Virus record (IMG/VR): IMGVR_UViG_3300008050_000131
Location: 1 to 35,906 of that record
Origin: a virus
Direction: 5' to 3' (one strand)
DNA: 35,906 nt
Positions 4,148 to 32,442 of this stretch are shown here, piece after piece. The notes below the pieces were generated by a model that saw only the letters and a program-made list of their open reading frames with translations, ran no database searches and was not told where the DNA came from. The position numbers were made by a program, and so were the translations under genes. The stretch's first letter is position 1. Each line of letters starts with the position of its first letter.

Positions 4148-5104
4148 TCATAAAAACCTTGAGTTCTCAAGTGTATAGAGGATCTCTTCTGTAGAACATT
4201 CCCCAAAGTCTTTTTTATTGACCTCCTTTATAGAACCAACCTTTGTCATGACATGAGGTGAGATAAGTTCCTTTGCTAAGGAGGCTCCACGCTCACCTGC
4301 TTCATCATTATCAAAACAAAGAATAACTTCAGTAGAGAATTTTAAAATTAACTCCGTTTGTTCAGAGGTGATGGAAGCACCAAGTATCGAGACTACACCG
4401 TATTGATTATCTTTCCCCTGAACTTGGAGAGCCTGCTCTGTAATAACCGCATCGAGTACGCCCTCAACTACAATTATTTTTCTCTGCGTATTTATTAAAT
4501 GCGCTCCTAAAACCTGCTTCCCTTTCTTCATCTCCCAGTAGTTCAAATACTTTGGGTGCGCCCCGTTTATACTACGACCAACACACCCCCATAACCGCCC
4601 TTGATAATCTCTAACAGGGAATACGGCCCTCTTGCGATCTTTATCGAACCCCAAGCCCCACCTCTTCGCTGTCTCAATAGAGACTCCCCTCTTCATTAAG
4701 TACCTTGGAATATGACCACTAAACGGAGCGAAGAGGGATTCATCGAAGGGTTTCAATTTCTTCTTCTTCTTTGCTAAATAACTCATACCGTTTAACCCCT
4801 CCATGATCTCCTCTGATTCCATCAGGAGACAAGCATCTACAGCGGGTGACCAATAGGGGTCATGGTGAGCGAGTCGCTTATAAAGAAAGCTCAATTTTCT
4901 AGCCTTAAACCCACAAGTGAAACAATTCACCAATACACTTGTATCGGTTATCTTGATACCCATCGAAGGTCTTGAGTCTTTATTTGATGAATGAAGAGGG
5001 GAATAAGGTGCAAGGGGGCAACCAATACCGATGTTTGATTCACCTCTCCTCATCTTAAAGCCTGAGATCCGTAGTATCTCCTCTACCTTTTCTTCTTTAG
5101 TCAT
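4148..5104 (-). CDS. DnaG-like DNA primase (CHC2 zinc finger plus TOPRIM)
   Basis: This 318-residue primase makes RNA primers for the phage fork. The N-terminus has a CHC2-type zinc site: Cys29, His38, Cys61 and Cys64 (C-x8-H, then C-x2-C). A middle region contains FDESLFAPFSGHIPRYLMKRG and GLGFDKDRKRAVFPVRD, typical of the DnaG RNA-polymerase core. The TOPRIM fold follows with IIVVEGVLDA (Glu214) and the metal-binding acid cluster FDNDEAG (Asp265, Asp267). It is shorter than bacterial DnaG and lacks the C-terminal helicase-binding domain, as in many phage primases. A run of five lysines (residues 112-116) is unusual and may contact DNA. Start and stop overlap the neighbouring helicase gene by one base. 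Confidence 0.9.
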   Translation of the reverse strand: MTKEEKVEEILRISGFKMRRGESNIGIGCPLAPYSPLHSSNKDSRPSMGIKITDTSVLVNCFTCGFKARKLSFLYKRLAHHDPYWSPAVDACLLMESEEIMEGLNGMSYLAKKKKKLKPFDESLFAPFSGHIPRYLMKRGVSIETAKRWGLGFDKDRKRAVFPVRDYQGRLWGCVGRSINGAHPKYLNYWEMKKGKQVLGAHLINTQRKIIVVEGVLDAVITEQALQVQGKDNQYGVVSILGASITSEQTELILKFSTEVILCFDNDEAGERGASLAKELISPHVMTKVGSIKEVNKKDFGECSTEEILYTLENSRFL

Positions 5105-6333
5105 TAGAAGGTCACTGACCCAAAGTCGGACTCTTCGACTTCGTTAAATGTCATCGTTCCCATATCCCAATCACACTCTATCTCTGGGCGTTCGCCCTCT
5201 CTCTGCTTTAAGACCTTCAGCGTCATCCTCTTATTCAATCGCTGATCCTCGTCTTGGAATAACCCTAAGATCACATCCGCGTCTTTGGCGATGTCCCCAT
5301 ATGCAATATGACTCGCATCTCCCTTAGAATTATCAGCCTGTCGGTTAAACTGAACCGTAGCCATAATTGGAACCTGAACACGCTTACTTAACTTTTTTAG
5401 ATCCCTTGAGATGTTCCCGATCTTTAACCAATTATCTCGCGCTCTCTGGTCATCATCCATCAGGTACATACCATCGATGTAAACGATGTCAGGCTTATGA
5501 CGCTCAATCTTCGCTGAGACATGACTCACCCCCCCACTCTCCTCACCTACAATGAATAATTCTCCCTTTCCCTTCATTGGGTTCTTAACCGCCTTACTCC
5601 ACTCAGCCTCTTTAAATGAATTTAGCGACCCTTTTCTCAAGTCTTGATATGAGAGGTCAAACTCTAATGCGTCAAAGCGTCTAGCGACTTGTCTCGAAGG
5701 CATCTCCTTTGTAAAGTATAGAACTCTCAAACCCTCCTTCAGATTTCGATGCGCGAGGATGTTCGTCAACCATGTCTTTCCTACACCCTGACGAGCGACT
5801 ACCAAGATGAACTCCCCATCATGGAAACCTTGAGTAGCTTCATCTAAGGTGGGGAATGGGGTCGTATACCCATCAATACCTTTGTTCTGTTGGAGTTTTA
5901 AATACTCCGCGTATCTCTCTTCTGCGGTAGCGTTCCAATCAACATCGGCTTCTGATGCCGTTGAGTCCTCGATCTGCCTCACCGCTTCTCTTAATCGATC
6001 AACAGCCTCCTCCACGTTTTTCTCGTTTAGATGTCCGTAAGCCTCACTTACTGCGGTTACCGTCAAATTGAAAGCGTGTTTCCTCTTTAATTGCTCGATG
6101 TAATAACTGAGGGGTTCATGTGGAGGGAAGTCCCATGTGTAATCTGGGAACTCTTGGTTTAAGGCATCAACACTTGGCCCAAGTCCATGCTTCTTAGAGT
6201 AGGACTGACAGAATGACCACATTTTTGTGTAGACACCCTCAAAGAGGTCTTCGGTCACTGCGTTCTCATACGCTTTGGTGTAGAGATTTGGATCTCCAAC
6301 GCATAGATCAATTATACTTTTTTCAATGTTCAT
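5104..6333 (-). CDS. DnaB-like replicative DNA helicase
   Basis: This is a 409-residue hexameric helicase of the RecA/DnaB fold that would unwind the fork 5'-3'. An N-terminal helical domain (about residues 1-135) is followed by the motor. The motor shows FPTLDEATQGFHDGEFILV leading into Walker A ARQGVGKTW (Ala in place of the first Gly, as in several phage helicases), FTKEMPSRQVARR, Walker B DIVYIDGMYLM, and the VPIMATVQFNRQA segment matching DnaB motif H4. A GYGDIAKDADVI-like segment (AYGDIAKDADVILGL) gives the expected late motif. The gene lies directly between a small unknown gene and primase, so helicase, loader and primase are co-expressed. An AAGGA lies upstream of the ATG, which overlaps the preceding stop by four bases. 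Confidence 0.92.
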   Translation of the reverse strand: MNIEKSIIDLCVGDPNLYTKAYENAVTEDLFEGVYTKMWSFCQSYSKKHGLGPSVDALNQEFPDYTWDFPPHEPLSYYIEQLKRKHAFNLTVTAVSEAYGHLNEKNVEEAVDRLREAVRQIEDSTASEADVDWNATAEERYAEYLKLQQNKGIDGYTTPFPTLDEATQGFHDGEFILVVARQGVGKTWLTNILAHRNLKEGLRVLYFTKEMPSRQVARRFDALEFDLSYQDLRKGSLNSFKEAEWSKAVKNPMKGKGELFIVGEESGGVSHVSAKIERHKPDIVYIDGMYLMDDDQRARDNWLKIGNISRDLKKLSKRVQVPIMATVQFNRQADNSKGDASHIAYGDIAKDADVILGLFQDEDQRLNKRMTLKVLKQREGERPEIECDWDMGTMTFNEVEESDFGSVTF

Positions 6334-11750: not shown

Positions 11751-14700
11751 TCAGATCACAAAATAATTAGACCCGTCACATACTACAGTGACAGAATCAT
11801 ATTGAGTAGATAGGACAAACGAAGAAGCTCCGTCAATCGTTCCTGATGCAGTGTCAATCGTCACCGCTCCAGCCCCTACGCTCTTGATGTTATATTTAAA
11901 ACCACTCGCTGAAGCGGGATCAGGTAGAGTGATTGTCGAGGCACTCCCCGCATTTATCAAGTAGATCTCCTCATATATTGGCGCACCGCTCGGTGCGCTC
12001 AAGGCTGTAGTCCCTGTGAGTGAAGAGTTTAACTCTGATGAGTTAGGGATCGCCACATCTTCAAAAGCACCGTATCCCGTAGTCCCGCCCGTACTGTTCC
12101 ATTGCAGAATACGCCCGTCAGTAATGTTTAGGTCGAACTCTGTAGCCGTTGCGGATTTCGTTAAGTCGAGAGGGAGAGGCTGATTCAGCCCGAAGTCACA
12201 ATACCAAACTTCTTTATGAGAAGAGGAAACCGTATTTTGCTCATTCTGAACACAAGTCAGTTCTAGCGTTGAGAGAGTCTGCAAGAAGATTTTCTCAGCA
12301 CTGGAGCCTCCCTGCGTCAACCCATCAAAAATGTAACTCTGGTCTTGATTATTTCCAAGTCCTATTTGAACTGTACCTGTTCCACCCCCGCGCATAATCT
12401 TTATTCTATGCCCTAGTTTTGGATCCTCAGGCATTGAGATAGTGAGAGTTCCTGCGCTCCATGTTGACGGAATAAAGACTATGTCCCCCGCCTTGGGGAA
12501 ATACCCCGTAGCAGTGTTATCGACAGTCACAACGTTCCACGCACCAATGTCTGATTTAACAGGGGTGACGGTGATTGCCGTTGTTCCTAAGGTAAATGAG
12601 GCGGGCCTAGTAACCACACACTCATAGCCTGACCATACATCGTTTTCGACATAGACCCGCGTTCCGTTTTTGATCTCTGCGTCAGAATCAAATGAAGATA
12701 AGCGAGTGAAGACAACTGAGGTTACGCCATAGACGGTTAGTGCGCTTGTTACTTCGTATAACCCACAGGCTTGAGGCTGGAGTGTCGAACTCAAATAGAT
12801 CCCGCCTCCGAACAGAATAGTGTCTCCCTGCGAAAGACTCGTCCCCGAACCGATCCCCAAGAAACCCACATTCCGTTGCCACCAAACATCATCGGTTGAC
12901 GTGCTCTGACTCTGATGAGCAATAGAGATCGTTGTGTCCGTAATCGCGTTTGCTGTCACTGTTCCGAACGTAGCATAGTCAACGGTAAGGTGTTCAGCGG
13001 GTGCGCCTTCAGACCCAGTAGGCCCCGTAGGCCCCGTAGGCCCAGCAGGCCCCGTAGGCCCCGTAGGCCCCGTAGACCCCGTAGGCCCCGTAGACCCAGC
13101 AGGCCCCTCTAGAGAGCCTCCTGAAATCCACCCGCTCTGGTTGTAAGGGGATGTCCCGTCATACATTAGAAAAACGTTCTCATCTACTCCTGAGAACTGT
13201 GAGATGACGGCACTCCCCAACTGTGGAGTGAAGGTTCCCCCGCCAATAACAGAAAAAGGAGGACTACCACTAAATACGGAATCTGTACCGATCTCCCCTT
13301 CAAAAGTAATGCCTGCTCCATCAGTTCCTGCTGGGCCTACTAGCCCTTGTATACCTTGTGGACCTTGAGCACCATCAGTTCCATCGCCCCCTTGGGGGCC
13401 TGTGGGTCCTGCGGGTCCAACTGCCCCATCGGGGCCTATGGCTCCTTGTGGGCCTTGTACCCCTTGAGGTCCAACAGGCCCTTGTGATCCTTGTGGTCCC
13501 TGTATTGAACCTCCAGAGACAAAGCCATGTATTCCGCTAGTCGTTGTACCATCATGGATATGGAGAGAGTCATCAAGTTCTACTAGCCACGCATCGCCTA
13601 TTGTGCCACCAGCCTCTAGATCATTGGTCGTTGGCTTTGTCCCTTTAAAGTTTATTCCTGTGCCTGCTACTCCTTGGATGCCTTGGACTCCTTGTGCTCC
13701 AGCATCACCTGATACACCCTGTGTACCTTGGTCGCCTTGAGGTCCCTGTGCTCCTTGTGGCCCATCGGGACCTGTGGGACCTGTGCCTCCTGTATTTCCT
13801 GTTGGGCCTGTTGGTCCTATTGCGCCTTGTGGTCCTATTGCGCCTTGTGGGCCTTGTGGGCCTTGCGTCCCCTGATTTCCTTGAGGGCCAATTTCTCCCT
13901 GTACGCCTTGGTCGCCTGTTGGCCCTTGCCCTGAAGCAGGCATGATCAACTCTGTTAAGTTATTAGTGCCGAGACGTGTGTACGCTACTGTAGCGTCAAA
14001 CACATTCCCCTTATTAATGTAAGTCTTCGCATTCTCAGGGAAGTCGCTGTCTACGGTGACATAGATGCCGTACACATTGTCAGCCCTGCCTTGATTGGCA
14101 GAGGTACTCGTATTATCAATGATGAAGTGTGAGAAGGTGGCCTCAGACCGAATGTTGGTAGCTCCAGCAATGTAAATCTGCCCATATGCGTCTGCATTGC
14201 CTCCCCACGAGGTAAACTCACTGAACGCGGTGTTGATTATGGTGTTGCCTTTGACAGTGAAGTCGGAGACGTGCCATCCCATGATACCCGAACCCCAAGT
14301 GTCTTGGATCCGATTATTGAGAACCCGATTGTCACAGCCCCCTATAGAGACTATACCATGTTGTCCTGCTTCTACGATGAAGTTGCCCTCTATAACAAAC
14401 CCTGTGCAACCCTCTTCTCCATCGTAGGATCCCGATGCTAAATAAATGCCGTTATCAAGCACATGATGTACCTCATTGTTGGCGATTACTCCGTTGGTGC
14501 AGTCTTGGACTCTTAGTCCTCTAAGGCAGTAACTTACGATGCACTCTCGGATTTCGAGAGGCCCGCACCCTTCAATCCTACATGCACCCCCGTTAGACGT
14601 ATCAGTACCCGCGTATATGGCGTTGCACTCAGCCTGCGTCTTACCGTTGTTGATATGGTGGTCTAAAATACCCTTAGATCCGCACTTTGTAAAGTGTACG

Positions 14701-24215: not shown

Positions 24216-25667
24216 CTATGCGAATGCTGTATGGAAAGTTCTACCCGCAGGAGAACTAAGACCCGAAGACCAAGTTACATTTACAGGATCTTGATTAGGG
24301 TCAATATGGGGGTAAGTATACAATAAAGGAATGTTACTTGTGTCAGAAAGTGATTCCAAGATGTCAAGACTCCCTAAATCATCAGAAGCTCTAAGCGGTG
24401 AATCCGCATAATCATCGCTGATATTTAATACAAGACTCTCTGTAAAGTTCTCAAGAGCCTGCAAAGAGAAATCCGCGTAGTGTATGCCCAAATAGGGCAG
24501 TAGCCTATGGATCTTCTCAATCGCTAGATTATTTAGAAGAGGCTGACCAGATCCAAGAGGGGTAGTAAGAAGAATCAGAACACCAAATAATGAACGCCAA
24601 TCCTCGCCTGTTAAGGACATCATCACTCTATAATTGTCCGTAGGTAATCCTTCGATCCGTACCGAGTTAGGATCACTCAAATCTACGGTTCCATTAAACG
24701 GAACAGAATTAACAATATCTGCCCAGACACCATCAGTAGCCTCTACCCAACCCGCAGGTGGGTTCCCTGCTTGTATAGCGTCCTCTTCTGTCGCAGTGTA
24801 AAGGATATAATTGAACCCAAGATAAATCTCTACGTCCCAACCTGTGAGGGTCTGAAGAGATAACTCAAAAGCATCATTCGTACCCTTACTGCGCCATATA
24901 TCAATGGCGTTCGATGTCTCTTTTCTCCTCCTCACCTCTCTTAACTCAAAGTTTGTAGGCCACCCTAACAGGTGGTCAATGTAAGGGATAAAGGAAGCAT
25001 CAACAGATTCTACTTTATAACTCTCATCTTGAAACTTCTTAGTCCTTTGGTTCACCTCATCAAGAGACTTTCCGAAAGTCTGCAATAAGTTAAATAGTGC
25101 GTCCCCATTACGAGCATCTAAAATCTTAACGCCTCTAGGCATATAATCAAAGAGAGATACCCCCATAGAAGACTCACCAGAGTCAAGACCGAAGGTGCGG
25201 TCATGTGATGCGAGTGGTGAGAAACACCATAACGTATTATTGTTTACATCTGTACCCTCATAAAACACCGTATAATACCACGTTTGATGTTGGTTACTCG
25301 TCAGGTGGTCGAGGTGTAGAAAGTATGTATCTCTCTCGACTAAACCTAGATTTGCAGAGAGATCTTCATCAACGACTAAGACTGCCGTTGTGTCTTGATA
25401 GTCTCTTGGAAACTCTTTGGTTTTTCTGAGAACCTTAATCTTGCCCGTTAAGGTAAACCCGTTCTCATCTTTAGGGAGCGTATAATAAACCCTTATATGG
25501 TCACCTGTGACGATCTCAGTAGGAAACAGATCATCAGGAACAGTACCCACAACGAGATTACTCGGCTCTACCTTAAAGTGTTTCTTATACCCTAAACGAG
25601 TAAAGGGTTTAACTCCCGCGCCAATTTCTCTTACAAAAGAGAACTGCCACGACTCATGGGTAGACAT
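24216..25667 (-). CDS. Tail protein I family baseplate wedge protein
   Basis: This 483-residue protein lies directly after baseplate J with a one-base overlap (TAATG). It shows a gpI-like core: GVSLFDYMPRGVKILD, then NLLQTFGKSLDEVNQRTKKF and ASFIPYIDHLLGWPTNF, followed by RRRKETSNAIDIWRSKGTN. The last is the typical helical and RKG region where wedge proteins pair with gpJ. The N-terminal 130 residues are an added beta domain; the C-terminal half has YADFSLQALENFTE-like segments. Longer than P2 gpI, as in many larger myoviruses. It is part of the wedge that forms the baseplate rim. Confidence 0.82.
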   Translation of the reverse strand: MSTHESWQFSFVREIGAGVKPFTRLGYKKHFKVEPSNLVVGTVPDDLFPTEIVTGDHIRVYYTLPKDENGFTLTGKIKVLRKTKEFPRDYQDTTAVLVVDEDLSANLGLVERDTYFLHLDHLTSNQHQTWYYTVFYEGTDVNNNTLWCFSPLASHDRTFGLDSGESSMGVSLFDYMPRGVKILDARNGDALFNLLQTFGKSLDEVNQRTKKFQDESYKVESVDASFIPYIDHLLGWPTNFELREVRRRKETSNAIDIWRSKGTNDAFELSLQTLTGWDVEIYLGFNYILYTATEEDAIQAGNPPAGWVEATDGVWADIVNSVPFNGTVDLSDPNSVRIEGLPTDNYRVMMSLTGEDWRSLFGVLILLTTPLGSGQPLLNNLAIEKIHRLLPYLGIHYADFSLQALENFTESLVLNISDDYADSPLRASDDLGSLDILESLSDTSNIPLLYTYPHIDPNQDPVNVTWSSGLSSPAGRTFHTAFA

Positions 25668-27571
25668 TAAATACCTCCTCTAAAAGAGAGGTTAAATTGT
25701 TCATCGAGTAGATTACCGTCTGCGCCTATCGGAGCCACAATGATCTCATGAGGCTTCGCATCTATATTCCCTAGATAATCGTCTAGAGAAAAGTCCCAGA
25801 GGTCGCCCTGTTGAGGAACAGTCGCCCCCGTAGTTATCGTTATGGAGAATTGAACTAACTCAGGAGCTTGATTGTTCTGAGGATTACTAATGTACCTCGT
25901 CACCGTCTCTTCTATACCCGCAGTAAAGATTTGATCTGCACCCAGACTCGTTTGAACATAAGAACCGCTAGAGGTTAAAAGTTTGAAAGTATTAGCCCCT
26001 AACCATACGACTCTATAAGTCTCGGATCTCGTTTGTATATTTATCCCTGTGATCTCCATCAAAGAGTTATCAAAAGCGTCTTCAGAACCAGATAGCCTCC
26101 TTAAAGAAGGTATCCTGTGGAACGCGGTGACATCTAAATAGTCTACCCCTTGAGTGTTCTCAATGGCTTGGATCACTGCGGATAATGGTAACCCTTCTCC
26201 AAACTCATCAGTGACATTAGAGAATAAATCCTGAAGAGATAATTCTACTCCAAACTCAACGCCATCTCTCAACATATTAGGGTAAACATGAATGATCGCC
26301 TCAAAATAAGGATTGATCGCTGTAGGTGCTATGACCTCTAATTTAGTCGGGACAGGCATTCTCTGAGAGACATACCTACCTACAACCCCTATTGCCCCCC
26401 AACCCGCGTTAAGATTAGAATACCACCTACCTGTAGGAATCGGATTGTTACCCTCTGTAGCCACATATAAATTAACCTCTATTGGCGCGTCTCCTCTACT
26501 CGCCCTCGCTGACCTCACACCTACGGAGGGTGTACTCTTTGCGATAGTCTCAAAGTCCCCAAGAGTAACAGCACGATCAAGAGCGCGAAGCGATAACGGC
26601 CCGTTCTTCTTGGCTGTCTCTACTGACTCTGGATTAACACCCCCAGACGGCTGACTTAGATTGTAAACAGAGGAAACCCCGATAACAGAGTCATACTTGA
26701 TGATGCTCCCGACACCCGCTCTGTTTGTCTCTGTCCCACCATCGATCCGATACGATACAAGGATAACACCTCCTATCGTTGGGATCTTTCCGTTTACCCC
26801 ATCACCAAAAGTGATCGTAACCTCTTCGGTCGAGAGGAATTTATAAACAAAAACCTCTGAAGTAGGCTCTGTACCTAGAAAAGAGGTCTTACCTTCCCAT
26901 ATATTCCCATTAACCGTTAAAGAGACTGCGCTTCCATCAACGGGATCTAAACATACAGGAGACGATGAGAGTAGGAAAGACTGGTCAGGTTCTCCGTTTG
27001 AAACCCCTAGACCCTCACTTACAAGTGAACCTCCTGTGAAGATTAGAGAATCATTAGTGCTAAACGTCTCTCCACTAAATGTCCTTTGCGCCTTACTTAA
27101 TTCGTAAGAGACACAATAAGACCCCAAAGCACCTAATAGTACAGGTGTGTTAAGCTGATAACTCAACGAACCTACCGCCTCATTAGAATCAGTCCTTACC
27201 GTAAAACCAGCGGGTAGTAAGACATTATTGAGATTCGTTCTGATGATCATACCTACAGTCGCAGGAGACGCAGGACTTAACTCATAACCAATCAATCTTA
27301 ATAGATCGACAACCGCCTCTCTTGTCTGTGCGGAGGCTAAATAAGACTCATTCTGCGCCCTATCAATTCCATAACTTAAAACGTCACCGAGATAAGCCAC
27401 TGCTTCAAGAATCGTAACTCCAATATCGCTTGGCTCTCGATCCGTCCACAAAGGATTTAATTTAGTCGCTAGAAGTAATAATTCATCCCTTATAGAAGAG
27501 AAGTCCCTAGTCGTATAGTCGATTTGTATAGGTAACCCACCTAATGATGATGGCTCTGGGCGAAGGGGCAT
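25667..27571 (-). CDS. Baseplate J-like protein (gpJ/gp6 family)
   Basis: This 634-residue baseplate wedge protein begins IQIDYTTRDFSSIRDELLLL, then WTDREPSDIGVTILEAVAYL, the standard gpJ N-terminus. NRAGVGSIIKYDSV is the classic domain motif of Baseplate_J proteins. GPLSLRALDRAVTLGDFE and the following ARASRGD match the family's central region. The C-terminal ~230 residues (PTKLEVIAPTA through the Gly-rich end) form a variable beta domain. GGAG precedes the ATG, 3 bases after the gp25 stop. gpJ pairs with gpI in the wedge around the hub. Confidence 0.95.
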   Translation of the reverse strand: MPLRPEPSSLGGLPIQIDYTTRDFSSIRDELLLLATKLNPLWTDREPSDIGVTILEAVAYLGDVLSYGIDRAQNESYLASAQTREAVVDLLRLIGYELSPASPATVGMIIRTNLNNVLLPAGFTVRTDSNEAVGSLSYQLNTPVLLGALGSYCVSYELSKAQRTFSGETFSTNDSLIFTGGSLVSEGLGVSNGEPDQSFLLSSSPVCLDPVDGSAVSLTVNGNIWEGKTSFLGTEPTSEVFVYKFLSTEEVTITFGDGVNGKIPTIGGVILVSYRIDGGTETNRAGVGSIIKYDSVIGVSSVYNLSQPSGGVNPESVETAKKNGPLSLRALDRAVTLGDFETIAKSTPSVGVRSARASRGDAPIEVNLYVATEGNNPIPTGRWYSNLNAGWGAIGVVGRYVSQRMPVPTKLEVIAPTAINPYFEAIIHVYPNMLRDGVEFGVELSLQDLFSNVTDEFGEGLPLSAVIQAIENTQGVDYLDVTAFHRIPSLRRLSGSEDAFDNSLMEITGINIQTRSETYRVVWLGANTFKLLTSSGSYVQTSLGADQIFTAGIEETVTRYISNPQNNQAPELVQFSITITTGATVPQQGDLWDFSLDDYLGNIDAKPHEIIVAPIGADGNLLDEQFNLSFRGGI

Positions 27572-27574
27572 AAT

Positions 27575-27943
27575 CTACTCCTCTACGATTAGTGAAAGAT
27601 CGTGGTACTCTGTACCTGTGTCTATTTTAAAGGTCATATTAATTAATAACTTACCTTTATCTGTGGGAGTCAAATCAACGGAGATAACACTGACCCTCGA
27701 TTCGGATAACTCAACACCTGTTCTTATGTAGTTTTGTAACTCTTGTCCACTCTGAGAATCTATCGATTTAAAGAGGTATAAATAACCAAGACTACCAACA
27801 TTAGGCGACATAACGCGCTCACCCATAGAGGTGAGAATAATCGCTTTTATGTTGTCTTTTATCTTATCAATACCCGTTGACTCTATAAAAGAACCTCTGG
27901 GGCCAATTCTAAGCGGAAAACTTAATCCTTTTAGTATCGCCAT
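27575..27943 (-). CDS. Baseplate wedge protein gp25/gpW family
   Basis: This 122-residue protein shows the gp25-like pattern: GLSFPLRIGPRGSFIESTG, DNIKAIILTSMGERVM, then SPNVGSLGYLYLF and an acidic C-terminus with INMTFKIDTG. The ERVM-x4-GS-x-GYLYLF block corresponds to the conserved EPR-like loop region and fold of gp25. It is a small wedge protein that initiates sheath assembly from the baseplate. GAGGAAT precedes the ATG, and it lies directly before gpJ in the usual order. Confidence 0.92.
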   Translation of the reverse strand: MAILKGLSFPLRIGPRGSFIESTGIDKIKDNIKAIILTSMGERVMSPNVGSLGYLYLFKSIDSQSGQELQNYIRTGVELSESRVSVISVDLTPTDKGKLLINMTFKIDTGTEYHDLSLIVEE

Positions 27944-27946
27944 AGT

Positions 27947-29197
27947 TTATTCCTCTCTCTGAGTCCATTGGGTTTTACCACGCCTGATCTCTACGAACTT
28001 ATTATAGTTCTCTTGAGTCCTACCCGTTCCGCCTTCAAGATCTTCTTTTAGATCTTCTCCTGCGATCATATTAATAATAGTTTGGATACGAGAAAATTCA
28101 GTATCTACGCCTGCTTGTATGTGCATAGCTACACCGCCCCCAAAACTATATTCCTGTCCCAATTGTCGAGAGGTGTTTAGGATATTCTCTCCTGTACTCT
28201 TTAAAAGAATATCCTTCTCATATGTCTCCGACTTTGGATAAGAAGGGTGAAGAGGGGCATTGATAACTGCCCTCCCAAAGTCCTCACTGTCCCCTTTACC
28301 AGCACAAATAAACAACGCTAGAGGAGAACCAAAAGTAAAGAAGTCTATCAAAGACGCGATAGTCGAGATTAATTGAGTAGCAAGTTCTGTTATCCGAGAT
28401 ATACGGAGATTAACGGTACGAATTATCTCATTGATCTTATCAAAAAAACCTTTAAGTGTAGATAACTGAAGGAGAGTCTCTGTTAATCCATACAGTAACT
28501 TTTTAAAAATAGGTATGTCAGAAAGAGCATATGTCTTTCCCCAATCAGGAGCCATACCAGAACCACCCCCCTCCACCCTAAACTCTAAATCCGTAAAGGG
28601 GTCATTCAATTTACCTAGACCCATCAGGTCATCACTAAGGCCGTCAAACCCCCTAAACTTCTTTAGAATATTATCAAAAACTTCCATCAAAGCATTAAGA
28701 TCAGGTAACGACCATATACCTACAACCACCGCACCATGACCGTCCTTATTTAATATAGGTCTATTATTGTCCTCTTTATCGAGATATGACATACCGATGT
28801 CGTACAAAATCTCGTTTGGCCTTCTTCTAGATTTAGGTGACGTAGGGAAGTGGTAAAGAAACGATAACGAAGTCCCCTGTAACAATTCTATTAATTGCTC
28901 AAGGATCTCGTTCACTAAAATGTAAACCCCCTGAAGAACGTCTACTGAGATCCTCAGAACTAATGCCAAAAGATCTACAGCACTACTAAGTAAATCAACC
29001 ACTCCCTGCAATACCGCTAACCCCGTTAAGATTCCCTCACTTGCAGTCTCTATTATTTCAGGGATCGGAGATAACTTTTCTCTTATCTGTTCTTCAGTTA
29101 GACCCCGTACCCATTTTAGTTCAAAGTCTGATGGGAGAGCCTCTACAGCACTCTCAATATCATCTTCTCTTGTTAATCCTCTTTGACTTGTGGGCAT
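27947..29197 (-). CDS. Baseplate-operon protein of unknown function, hydrophobic helical core
   Basis: This 416-residue protein has a long helical hydrophobic stretch at about 55-110 (TGLAVLQGVVDLLSSAVDLL, VYILVNEILEQLIELL) and another at about 265-300 (IRTVNLRISRITELATQLIS). The ends are hydrophilic. It sits where other phages have a gp53 or hub-associated component, between the cyclase gene and gp25. The hydrophobic stretches could form an amphipathic core rather than true membrane helices. No family recognised. Its ATG lies 38 bases inside the previous gene. Confidence 0.7.
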   Translation of the reverse strand: MPTSQRGLTREDDIESAVEALPSDFELKWVRGLTEEQIREKLSPIPEIIETASEGILTGLAVLQGVVDLLSSAVDLLALVLRISVDVLQGVYILVNEILEQLIELLQGTSLSFLYHFPTSPKSRRRPNEILYDIGMSYLDKEDNNRPILNKDGHGAVVVGIWSLPDLNALMEVFDNILKKFRGFDGLSDDLMGLGKLNDPFTDLEFRVEGGGSGMAPDWGKTYALSDIPIFKKLLYGLTETLLQLSTLKGFFDKINEIIRTVNLRISRITELATQLISTIASLIDFFTFGSPLALFICAGKGDSEDFGRAVINAPLHPSYPKSETYEKDILLKSTGENILNTSRQLGQEYSFGGGVAMHIQAGVDTEFSRIQTIINMIAGEDLKEDLEGGTGRTQENYNKFVEIRRGKTQWTQREE

Positions 29198-29516
29198 TGG
29201 TGATCTCTCTTGCTAATTGTGCTTTTATCATTGTCTTTGCGTGGTGGGTTTCTTTTTTTATTGAGGCCCAAGTGATAAAGTCTAATGTGTCTACTGCGGT
29301 AGATTTAACTAATGAAGAATCTCCTGTCCCGCTTTCAAGAAGAGTTTTAAAATCCTCAAGACCTTCTTTTAATTTTACCATAAATTCTTCTTTTGTTTGG
29401 CCTTTCTTATCCCAAGGAGTGATTAACCCCTTATCTAACCCTGTTATTAACTCCCCAACCTTCTCCTCTATATCGTTAATAGACTCTGTAGTTTTTGGAG
29501 TATTTTCTTCACTCAT
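29160..29516 (-). CDS. Hypothetical helical protein
   Basis: This 118-residue, charged protein is predicted helical by composition: EEKVGELITGLDKGLI, KEEFMVKLKEGLEDFKTLLE, then a basic end AHKSKRINKRR. There is no membrane segment or recognisable motif. It starts 27 bases after the cyclase stop and overlaps the following 416-residue gene by 38 bases. It may be a baseplate chaperone or tail assembly helper; that is only a guess from place and composition. Confidence 0.65.
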   Translation of the reverse strand: MSEENTPKTTESINDIEEKVGELITGLDKGLITPWDKKGQTKEEFMVKLKEGLEDFKTLLESGTGDSSLVKSTAVDTLDFITWASIKKETHHAKTMIKAQLAREITNAHKSKRINKRR

Positions 29517-29543: not shown

Positions 29544-30362
29544 TTAATTATACACAATATGTTTGTCGATAAAATTAAGAACCGCTTCCTTTAACTCCCC
29601 AAACCATCTTAGATCAATATCGAAGAAGTCTAAATAGATCCACCGACAATCTGTCCAAACCGTATATGAGATTAACCATAGAGCGTACACAAATATTATG
29701 AAACCTAAGACCTGTTTTAAAAACCTTAAATAATCAGAACCACTCCAGTCCGTCCCCCATTTCGGTTTATTTACTCTTTTGACCTTCTCATTCTCTTTCG
29801 GAAGGGTAAAGTCAGAAGATTTAAACCCTACAGCGTGAATCATCATAGGGTTCTTAACTCCTTTTAGACGATAACTCCCCAAATTCTTAAAATGAGCACC
29901 CTTTGGAGTAAAGGAATTAAGACGGTTCTCAGATGCCCTTCTCGCAGAGGTTGAGAGTAACACCTGACCTCCACTAGCCAAACTCATTATTCTTGCGCCT
30001 ATCGGCTTCGCAAGACCCTCTACCTCTATTCTCTTCGCTCCTTGGTCGACATAGATCTTCTTATTCTTCTTTAGTACCACTTCTCCCCAATGTATTCCGA
30101 TTCTCGCCTTAAACCCTGTCCTTGCAGGGATTGATTGGTGGTAGGCGAGTGCAAAGTTCACTGCATCTATCGTTCGATCAAAGATCACTAAGAACCCATC
30201 CGTCTTATCAATCTCGATACCGTTAAATCGATAGATCATAGTCCTTACCAATTTATCATGATAAAAGAAAACCTGTGCTGATCTTCGACTCCCTACCCTC
30301 TCAATAAAACGAGTAGAATCAACTACGTCTAAGAGTAGGAGAGCTTTTAAAGAGGTTTCCAT
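29544..30362 (-). CDS. Class III nucleotidyl cyclase with C-terminal membrane anchor
   Basis: This 272-residue protein has a class III adenylate/guanylate-type cyclase domain over residues ~5-165. LLLDVVDST supplies the first metal Asp12, and EIDKTDGFLVIF the second, Asp55. GIHWGEVV, EVEGLAKPIGARIMSLASGG and LLS follow the fold's order. Arg124 matches the transition-state Arg of the canonical Asn-x3-Arg, but Asn is Pro120; Glu113 sits at the base-selecting position. From memory, this variant (ID[KR][ST]DG, EGLAKP) is close to cyclases annotated in bacteria as putative peptide modification system cyclases (TIGR04510). The tail has one transmembrane helix (about 218-236). It overlaps the upstream membrane protein by one base. 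The product nucleotide is unknown. Confidence 0.85.
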   Translation of the reverse strand: METSLKALLLLDVVDSTRFIERVGSRRSAQVFFYHDKLVRTMIYRFNGIEIDKTDGFLVIFDRTIDAVNFALAYHQSIPARTGFKARIGIHWGEVVLKKNKKIYVDQGAKRIEVEGLAKPIGARIMSLASGGQVLLSTSARRASENRLNSFTPKGAHFKNLGSYRLKGVKNPMMIHAVGFKSSDFTLPKENEKVKRVNKPKWGTDWSGSDYLRFLKQVLGFIIFVYALWLISYTVWTDCRWIYLDFFDIDLRWFGELKEAVLNFIDKHIVYN

Positions 30363-30670
30363 TACTTCTCTACTTTAGCCTGTAATTGTGCAACCGTAAC
30401 CTTTAAAGCGTTTAAGTCCTCCCAGATCTTAATTCGTCCATCCCTACATTGAGTCCCTATCTCTGTGTTCTTCTCAATGTAGGTATTAACTTTTTTTTCA
30501 ATAGAGTCCTCTAACGCATCTAACTTCTTCTCTTGTTGTTCGTTTAATTGAACTGCACTGGCTAGGTCGCTCTTAATACTATTTATAAGCGAAGAGATAT
30601 ACCAAATCACGCCTATAACAGACCCTAAGATGGATATAACCTGAATCAACATCTCTACAGTGATAGTCAT
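30362..30670 (-). CDS. Small membrane protein with coiled coil, cyclase-coupled
   Basis: This 102-residue protein begins with a transmembrane helix (about 7-27, MLIQVISILGSVIGVIWYIS) followed by a long coiled coil (about 35-102: LNEQQEKKLDALEDSIEKKV, ALKVTVAQLQAKVEK). A lone Cys sits mid-way. The ATG at 30670 is preferred because GGAGGT lies six bases upstream; one at 30673 is too near. Its stop overlaps the cyclase start (TAATG). It could be a partner or sensor of the cyclase, or have the topology of an i-spanin. Neither is proven. Confidence 0.65.
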   Translation of the reverse strand: MTITVEMLIQVISILGSVIGVIWYISSLINSIKSDLASAVQLNEQQEKKLDALEDSIEKKVNTYIEKNTEIGTQCRDGRIKIWEDLNALKVTVAQLQAKVEK

Positions 30671-30705
30671 CATGACCTCCTATTTTATCGCTAGTATACA
30701 ATAAT

Positions 30706-31035
30706 TTAAGAGATTGTACCTACACCTGTTCCTGTACCCGTACCACCACCTGTTATTGGGACAGTGTTCGATTGTGCGACCGCAGTACCTTGGACATTAA
30801 CAGTCGCAGGAGGGTGTAAGGTAGTTAGATTCGTATTCACAGTCGAACTAACCACTGCTCCTGTTGTAAGCCAAAGATGGATCGCTTGAGCGTATCCCTG
30901 CGCTCTCTGTGCGATAGAGGCTTTAGTTACAGGATCAATCACAGGAGGTACTCCGTTTTGAGTGTATGATTGGAGAATTAAAGTTTCATCTACTGCGATT
31001 AATGCCGTTGCTAAGGCTTCGGGGACAAGTGCCAT
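30706..31035 (-). CDS. Small protein with Gly/Thr-rich tail, after spike gene
   Basis: This 109-residue protein has a helical N-terminal half (EALATALIAVDETLILQSY, RAQGYAQAIHLWLTTG) and a short beta/low-complexity end, ITGGGTGTGTGVGTIS. GGAG precedes the ATG, 12 bases after the spike gene. It lies where many contractile tails encode a PAAR tip, but it shows no PAAR pattern. It may be a spike- or hub-associated structural protein. No family is recognised with certainty. Confidence 0.65.
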   Translation of the reverse strand: MALVPEALATALIAVDETLILQSYTQNGVPPVIDPVTKASIAQRAQGYAQAIHLWLTTGAVVSSTVNTNLTTLHPPATVNVQGTAVAQSNTVPITGGGTGTGTGVGTIS

Positions 31036-31047
31036 ATCTATTCTCCT

Positions 31048-32442
31048 TTAAACTTTTGAAAGAAAAACTGACTCACTTAGAATCAGTGGCTGTGTTGGTG
31101 CGGGTACTGTTAAAAATGTAGATTGTGCGGTAGTCAATGCGACATTGGCTAAAATTGAAGACGCTTGAAGAACAGGATTAGGCCCACCAAACCCTGTAGT
31201 CACCCCTCCCGATAACTGAAGCGTGGTGAAGAAGGTCTGTAAGGTACTCACGAGAGTGTTTAAGAATAAATTTAATTGTAGACCCATTACAGCAGGCTCT
31301 TTTGTAAGAGGTACAGGCCCAAGACCTAGTGTTACAGTCCTAAGAGCAGGAGTCAAATTACCTAAATAAACTTGACCCCCTAAACCCCCTCTCGCCTCTA
31401 CACCGTATACAGAGATGTTCTGAGTAGGATCTCCAGAGATAAACTTACTCGTACCGCCCGTTCCGACAATCGTACAAGACTCAGATACATACATTGGTTC
31501 AGGGATAGAGAGAGCGTTATTAAAGTTTAAATAACCCGTACCCGCGCCCACAAACTCAAAATCTCCAAAAGAAGATAGACTAAAATCACCGCCTGCGTTT
31601 ACCTCAAATAGATTCGCTAAGGTAGCAGTCAAACCCCCACCCGTTAAGTTTATATTGTCCTTTATCGTTACAGAACAATTACTCGCAGAATGAGTCTGTG
31701 ACCTCTTAATCTTTGTAGTGACATCACCATTCAAAATTGTTGAAAAGTCACCATCTACCTGTGAACTAACTGCACCTGAGATCTGTTGTCTCTTATCACC
31801 TGCAATAACCTCTACAGTGTTGGTCGAGCGCGTTCTGATATTCCCCTCCGCGATTATATTAACCGTCCCGTCTGGGAGTATCTCTATATGAGAACCCTTA
31901 GAGTGAAAGATCTGAACCCTCTCTCCACCCTCAGTGTCATCAAGTTCAAGCATATGACCCGCAGGAGTTCTGATGATGGTGACCTCTCCATACTCCGCTT
32001 CATAAGAAGACGCAGGTACTCCGAAGCTCCCCTTCATCCCATAATCACTACCATCATAATCAGCGCGACCATGAGCAGGCACAGGTGAGGATTCTAATTG
32101 ATACTCTGAAGACTCCTCAATCGCAGAACCGTCCGTAGAGTGACCATCAGTAATCTCGTCATAAAAACCCCCTACAAATATCGGATGCTCTACCATCCCC
32201 TCCTCACACTCTATCCAAACTAAAGAGCCGATGGGAGGTACGCTAAAGAATCCAGAATCTCTGCCCCCATACATAGGGAAACAGGGAGTAGCCCAAGGAC
32301 TCACACCTGTACCATATAACTCTACGTTCTCTACTCGGATTCGCCCTAACTTCTTAGGGTCTTGATTCTCAGCAACCCTCGCCCTGCGCTTCCCATAAAA
32401 ACGATTATAATACTTGTCTTCGTACTCGGATAAATGAAGCAT
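31048..32442 (-). CDS. Baseplate central spike protein (gpV/gp5 OB-fold type)
   Basis: This 464-residue spike has an N-terminal OB-fold matching gpV/gp5 (ENQDPKKLGRIRVENVELYG, then WATPCFPMYGGRDSGFFSVP, IGSLVWIECEEGMVEHPIFV, GGFY). From ~160, alternating hydrophobic residues (MLELDDTEGGERVQIFHSKG, HIEILPDGTVNIIAEGNI) fit a trimeric beta-helical needle of gp5/VgrG type, followed by a C-terminal domain. No lysozyme domain is present, unlike T4 gp5. GAGGAGAG precedes the ATG. It directly follows the hub gene, as expected for a hub-spike pair. Confidence 0.9.
   Translation of the reverse strand: MLHLSEYEDKYYNRFYGKRRARVAENQDPKKLGRIRVENVELYGTGVSPWATPCFPMYGGRDSGFFSVPPIGSLVWIECEEGMVEHPIFVGGFYDEITDGHSTDGSAIEESSEYQLESSPVPAHGRADYDGSDYGMKGSFGVPASSYEAEYGEVTIIRTPAGHMLELDDTEGGERVQIFHSKGSHIEILPDGTVNIIAEGNIRTRSTNTVEVIAGDKRQQISGAVSSQVDGDFSTILNGDVTTKIKRSQTHSASNCSVTIKDNINLTGGGLTATLANLFEVNAGGDFSLSSFGDFEFVGAGTGYLNFNNALSIPEPMYVSESCTIVGTGGTSKFISGDPTQNISVYGVEARGGLGGQVYLGNLTPALRTVTLGLGPVPLTKEPAVMGLQLNLFLNTLVSTLQTFFTTLQLSGGVTTGFGGPNPVLQASSILANVALTTAQSTFLTVPAPTQPLILSESVFLSKV

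Follow-up and report, generated by a model that had tools for sequence, protein, structure and literature searches.

On the host side of the phage-bacterium conflict, cyclic mononucleotides are known from Pycsar. A Pycsar system, formed by PycC with PycTM or PycTIR, places a gene for a cyclase of class III fold beside one for a membrane protein (PMC11224242), and Panoptes similarly combines a synthase, OptS, and a 2TM protein, OptE, in two genes (PMC12657218). The phage pair described here, a cyclase gene adjoining a gene for a small membrane protein, shares this arrangement. It departs from Pycsar in being phage-borne and in having a partner with no recognised nucleotide-binding domain, and from Panoptes in that OptS is an mCpol, not a class III cyclase, and OptE carries a beta-barrel nucleotide-binding domain. 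Membership in Pycsar was rejected, since the PycC models missed the cyclase studied here, P0001 (best E=0.005, for one relative), the nine phage contigs searched yielded no PF00027 receptor, and PADLOC gave no credible effector match for the partner.

Cellular counterparts are found in TIGR04510, 'putative peptide modification system cyclase', whose members in Acidobacteriota, Myxococcota and Rhodanobacteraceae relatives have the EIDK[TS]DGF and GAKPxEVEGLAKP motifs in common with the phage cyclases. These cellular proteins, like the phage ones, continue into a P-rich linker and, in several, a membrane helix; they then extend into long C-terminal regions with TPRs, mostly reaching 700-1400 aa, whereas the phage proteins stop after the helix. 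The nearest solved folds are the mycobacterial adenylyl cyclases Rv1900c/LipJ and Ma1120 (Z 23-24, 29-31% identity over the domain), which in contrast have no C-terminal membrane helix in their solved domains and differ from P0001 in the base-specifying residues. We know of no coiled-coil membrane gene linked to either. Marine phages also have an annotated adenylate cyclase in the pelagiphage curli clusters, linked to CsgG, FecR and histidine kinase genes and comparable with P0001 by annotation alone (PMC9599517). Uncultivated tailed phages share the class III cyclase fold with P0001, as in the Caudovirales entries A0A6J5RWB7 (named a predicted transmembrane sensor) and A0A6J5KRX6 of BFVD, at 13-14% identity. 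The kind of enzyme is already known, and phage cyclases have precedents (PMC9599517; BFVD entries).

The stretch of DNA analysed here, an IMG/VR viral contig of 35,906 bases, is referred to as the window. It encodes DNA polymerase A, a Toprim primase, a DnaB helicase, a DnaD-like protein and tail fibres, together with a contractile-tail baseplate that includes a CIS tube, a gp5-like spike, gp25 and a J-type wedge. Because replication, tail-fibre and contractile-tail baseplate genes are all present, the window represents a real tailed phage. The cyclase gene and its surroundings are arranged as follows.

25667..27571, minus strand: baseplate J-like wedge, used as query for finding related phages
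27575..27943, minus strand: gp25-like baseplate wedge
29160..29516, minus strand: p118, the gene after the p103 and cyclase pair (synteny)
29544..30362, minus strand: P0001, 272-aa predicted class III nucleotidyl cyclase, anchored in the membrane by its C-terminal part, ATG start
30362..30673, minus strand: p103, the gene before the cyclase, with one predicted N-terminal membrane helix and a coiled coil
30706..31035, minus strand: p109, a small gene separating the spike from the inserted pair (synteny)
31048..32442, minus strand: gp5-like spike (Phage_base_V)

A 416-aa gene adjoining gp25 (27947-29197, minus strand) has a homologue at the same place in related phages and returned no match in PHROG and Pfam searches. 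Elsewhere in the window, ARAGORN called a tRNA-Cys at 12768-12860, within the ORF of a 1530-aa tail fibre; this call is probably spurious.

The reading we favour, with slightly more confidence than doubt, is an active membrane-anchored class III cyclase working with the adjacent small membrane coiled-coil protein, its product acting on host receptors. A preliminary description of the locus had proposed a class III cyclase with metal-binding Asp12 and Asp55, transition-state Arg124 and a C-terminal membrane helix, and had missed the membrane coiled-coil partner. Profile searches bear out the class: P0001 matched NCBIfam TIGR04510 over residues 4-196 (E=3.8e-51), and the Pfam Guanylate_cyc match was sub-threshold (1.7e-3). 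The TIGR04510 score of 174.5 bits compares with a curated cut-off of 400 bits and covers positions 4-204 of the 814 in the profile only, so that P0001 is best described as a predicted homologue of the TIGR04510 catalytic domain, not a family member. Among solved sequences, the cyclase domain of Rv1900c/LipJ is the closest (E=1.3e-11). An AlphaFold2 model built from 24 aligned relatives reached a mean pLDDT of 92.7, mostly 94-98 in the catalytic domain, and superimposed on Rv1900c (1ybt) with Z 24.1 and an rmsd of 1.9 Å over 171 residues (VIA-align; residues 1-187 covered). By this model the catalytic domain adopts the class III cyclase fold. Our literature search found no measured activity for any TIGR04510-like domain, and one passing mention. 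Within P0001 the following features were delineated.

29823..30362, minus strand: catalytic domain, residues 1-180 (structure alignment and pLDDT)
30192..30215, minus strand: EIDKTDGF, residues 50-57, with the second metal Asp55 and the invariant Asp52 at the predicted base-specifying Lys position
29991..30041, minus strand: GAKRIEVEGLAKPIGAR, residues 108-124, with Glu113 (predicted base-specifying Asp position), Pro120 (Asn position) and catalytic Arg124
29655..29741, minus strand: predicted membrane helix, residues 208-236 (model helix and hydropathy)

The metal ligands D12 and D55 and the transition-state arginine R124 are intact in P0001 and in every one of the 87 phage and 17 cellular relatives, and EIDKTDGF, Glu113 and Pro120 all lie where the preliminary description had placed them. 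In the alignment of phage cyclases, D12, D36, R40, E50, I51, D52, D55, G56, R87, H91, A109, K110, E113, E115, G116, K119 and R124 are invariant in 87/87 sequences, and A123 likewise. The EIDKTDGF-type motif, first regarded as an altered lysine region peculiar to P0001, recurs, with only K/R and T/S exchanges, in 24 sequences from phages and cells and in the 87 phage sequences; it is instead the signature of the TIGR04510-like branch.

Known adenylyl cyclases specify their base with a Lys/Asp pair and known guanylyl cyclases with Glu/Cys. Counted from the common Gly48, Rv1900c reads GREVN and the window GIEID. We infer that D52 takes the base-specifying Lys/Asn position, occupying that of the adenine-binding Lys because the loop is one residue shorter, and that E113 takes the base-specifying Asp position. 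The D52/E113 pair differs from both known pairs, and the base is therefore uncertain.

The exchange of the base-specifying Lys for D52, and of the transition-state Asn for P120 in the window, could point to a relative that is catalytically dead or does not cyclise and has been retained to bind nucleotides or to serve as a membrane scaffold, perhaps as a decoy against host cyclic-nucleotide defences. We consider this quite improbable: none of the aligned phage or cellular sequences departs from D12, D55 and R124, the Asn is retained in most relatives, and a protein that only bound nucleotides would have no need of the transition-state Arg. Ma1120 has Ala at the Asn position, is active, and lost its activity when Asn was put in (PMC4215837), so that P120 is no argument for a dead enzyme. 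The transition-state Asn is usual in class III cyclases, not obligatory and hence not defining (PMC4215837). Position 120 is N in 82, P in 3 and S in 2 of the 87 phage cyclases, and Pro, a local substitution, is restricted to the small branch of the window plus one other sequence.

Support for a functional cyclase gene, as in the favoured reading, also comes from its relatives. These were recovered by a degenerate DNA search for EIDKTDGF and by profiles; exact 8-mer patterns from P0001 were too specific and gave no yield. The degenerate search identified a syntenic orthologue, 58% identical, in contig G001, and profiles recovered G002 and G003. Selection is given as pN and pS, dS being saturated in most pairs: between the window and G001, pS was 0.90 and pN 0.20 in the catalytic part, and closer pairs gave a catalytic-domain pN of 0.14-0.20 versus a pS of 0.70-0.90. 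Purifying selection is strong in the catalytic part, but the tail evolves fast. A syntenic orthologue in another contig, together with this selection, excludes a chance ORF.

A profile built from seven phage cyclases and run against IMG/VR detected at least 299 relatives in uncultivated viral contigs, of which the best 80 were kept. No cyclase at this similarity was found in the 50,697 GenBank phage records searched, but with the IMG/VR relatives the rarity previously ascribed to phage cyclases of this class finds no support for phages generally. The only GenBank match labelled 'phage', MT838110.1 ('Bacteriophage sp.', L002), was not accepted as a phage precedent; it is an unannotated GC-rich contig with bacterial-looking genes and a cyclase ORF of 892 aa. 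It has the look of a piece of bacterial DNA and bears two cyclase genes as well as one gene resembling those for aldehyde dehydrogenase.

The seven phage cyclases, placed in a tree alongside 17 cellular and two outgroup domains, fell on one side of a branch (98/99). With 21 phage representatives the same one-sided grouping appeared in every bootstrap tree, counting only phage and outgroup rows; with cellular rows included, the fork had 94/59. The sampled phage cyclases form one group in the tree, apparently one old phage family. Cellular relatives were sparse: at E<=1e-25 they were found in 1/199 Acidobacteriota and 7/189 Myxococcota genomes, always in ORFs >400 aa, whereas the phage cyclases end after the helix at about 274 aa. 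In the literature searched, which covered few subscription papers, we found neither this cyclase family and its spread described nor the constant association with a coiled-coil membrane protein.

The C-terminal membrane helix proposed for P0001 was recovered both in the model (208-236) and as a hydropathy peak (218-236); it is the single hydrophobic helix, C-terminal of the domain. One hydrophobic helix at about residue 215-243 was present in 7/7 lineage members first examined, and at the threshold used a helix was called in 68 of the 77 complete genes of the wider phage set. A strongly basic stretch precedes the helix in 6/7 lineage cyclases, which by the positive-inside rule would leave the catalytic domain in the cytoplasm; these flank charges imply a cytoplasmic catalytic domain for the lineage. 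The linker before the helix (LPxxxEKVKR in phages) is similar to its cellular counterpart (PPxxxKAxR), which suggests that the phage cyclase may correspond to the first half of a cellular protein composed of cyclase, helix and TPRs.

Ten related contigs were found via the baseplate J protein. Five of them (G001, G002, G004, G005 and G007) have the cyclase, among them all three that reach 73 kb or more; the five without it measure 13-61 kb and are possibly fragments. The cyclase is probably near-universal within the lineage. Its location between the spike and gp25 genes, as first described, is correct for the window but is not the norm of the lineage: p103 and the cyclase are inserted in the baseplate operon only in the window and G001, and the gene is sited elsewhere in the other cyclase-bearing contigs. 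Comparison of baseplate operons for presence or absence of the gene, as the preliminary description had advised, revealed the order spike-(p109)-p118-gp25 without the cyclase in eight relatives, the p118 homologue directly following spike/p109 where the insertion is lacking. The baseplate position is the exception in this lineage, most simply a relocation.

In G004, G005 and G007 a Cys/His-rich protein of 81-97 aa (CALCGLSPDxCPCYxHPPHxC...) is encoded directly before the cyclase; the G005 copy had no PHROG or Pfam match.

L040, 9107-9352, plus strand: Cys/His-rich gene
L041, 9166-9459, plus strand: Cys/His-rich gene
L039, 5712-5963, minus strand: Cys/His-rich gene

In L005 a long second frame of the MWILPK..LMWRSKPSSAKTW type lies across a gene for a DNA cytosine methyltransferase (4891-6027, plus strand, and 4895-6181, plus strand). 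Similar long frames lie near the cyclase in G004 and G005 (L040:5926-7536, plus strand; L039:7402-9273, minus strand), and the overlapping frame may be conserved.

The partner in the window is p103, whose stop codon TAA overlaps the ATG of the cyclase as TAATG. A 51% identical counterpart stands beside the cyclase in G001. In the window, G001, G002 and G003 the gene immediately before the cyclase encodes a one-helix coiled-coil protein; no two-helix gene of the kind described below was found in the available sequence of these four contigs. The window belongs to an outlying branch with a one-helix coiled-coil gene before the cyclase. The AlphaFold model of p103 was poor (pLDDT 65.9) and contained helices only. 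Comparison by hhalign gave no support for homology of p103 with the one-helix gene of G002/G003, nor with the two-helix protein, and we term the three analogous.

p103 matched PHROG 739, 'Rz-like spanin' (E=1.4e-7), as would fit a lysis-cassette component in which p103 is the spanin and the cyclase sets lysis timing. The flanks of p103, with no N-terminal positive charge and a Lys after the helix, nonetheless suggest a cytoplasmic, not a periplasmic, coiled coil; the sister genes match PHROG 739 weakly (E=0.002-0.013) or not at all, and the pair lies between terminase and portal genes in other phages. This role in lysis is highly improbable.

Most relatives of the favoured membrane-anchored cyclase have a different partner. 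Among the best 80 of the at least 299 loci, 76 encode a two-helix coiled-coil membrane protein downstream of the cyclase (75 at +1, one at +2), with a 4-nt gene overlap in 38 cases. This protein has about 153 aa, two membrane helices and a coiled coil, and its core is strongly conserved (RGWWFS...ENRDVLVGILGVxTGSISSMxAIASGRDPSEVE). The reciprocal search with the partner, again with the best 80 loci, placed the cyclase just upstream in 76/80; three contigs end too early for a verdict, and in L215 (contig G403) the order is swapped, with the cyclase just downstream. The two genes are adjacent in 77/77 testable loci, one with swapped order, in searches whose contigs overlap and whose patterns derive from related sequences (best 80 each), and which are not independent random samples. 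Both arrangements comprise a membrane protein, its coiled coil probably cytoplasmic, adjoining a membrane-anchored cyclase.

That a synthase of a nucleotide signal is almost always paired with a 2TM protein raises the main rival to our reading, the two-helix protein as effector of the signal. In such a self-contained cassette, with an architecture like that of PycC and PycTM or OptS and OptE, the cyclic nucleotide would open or restrain the neighbouring two-helix protein, which would permeabilise the membrane in superinfection exclusion, against competing phages, or in lysis timing. The second helix is strongly conserved (GILGVxTGSISSM), and PF18142, SLATT_fungal, was the best Pfam match of 2/3 tested 2TM proteins, sub-threshold at E=0.003; SLATT domains are predicted to form pores that respond to nucleotides (PMC7159879). 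The match is a lead, not an assignment; it scores 18.1 bits against a cut-off of 26.5 and could reflect a common 2TM-plus-coil pattern. The partner, moreover, has no recognisable nucleotide-binding domain, PADLOC gave no credible Pycsar or CBASS effector match for it, and the 2TM protein is absent from the window branch in the available sequence. We regard this explanation as unlikely.

A membrane-bound phage cyclic-nucleotide module remains the best reading. The cytoplasmic catalytic domain would dimerise as class III enzymes do, bind two metals through D12 and D55, and cyclise a nucleoside triphosphate, the other subunit supplying R124. The partner, which is p103 in the window and the two-helix protein in most relatives, would reside in the same membrane with its coiled coil in the cytoplasm. 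Given the gene linkage and topology, it most likely controls the cyclase, much as the signalling coiled coil does in membrane cyclases made of a single chain. Its product is probably a purine cNMP, which would be released into the infected cell and act on host cyclic-nucleotide receptors, a target we infer because no PF00027 cyclic-nucleotide receptor was found in the nine phage contigs searched, several of them incomplete. If true, phages also make cyclic-nucleotide signals for their own ends. The spread of the cyclase over hundreds of contigs, usually with a small membrane protein beside it, suggests an unstudied phage signalling system, and the two genes offer a concrete unit for expression, with catalytic residues kept and a membrane partner fixed.

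The pair occurs in differing contexts, namely between terminase and portal genes, beside kinase-like and methyltransferase genes, and on contigs of 102 and 376 kb. The terminase-like neighbour was named by tblastn to annotated phages; a PDB sequence search with it returned nothing useful. We tentatively propose, at somewhat less than even confidence, that several kinds of phages carry a two-gene cassette of a membrane-tethered class III cyclase and a two-helix protein gated by or gating it, which has moved between lineages as a unit, and that the window branch has a one-helix protein instead, its cassette relocated into the baseplate operon. In L122 (IMGVR_UViG_3300033182_000980; 375,691 bases), the cyclase-2TM pair lies at the start of the contig and part of a cyclase is matched again at the far end, as an end repeat in a circular jumbo phage would predict.
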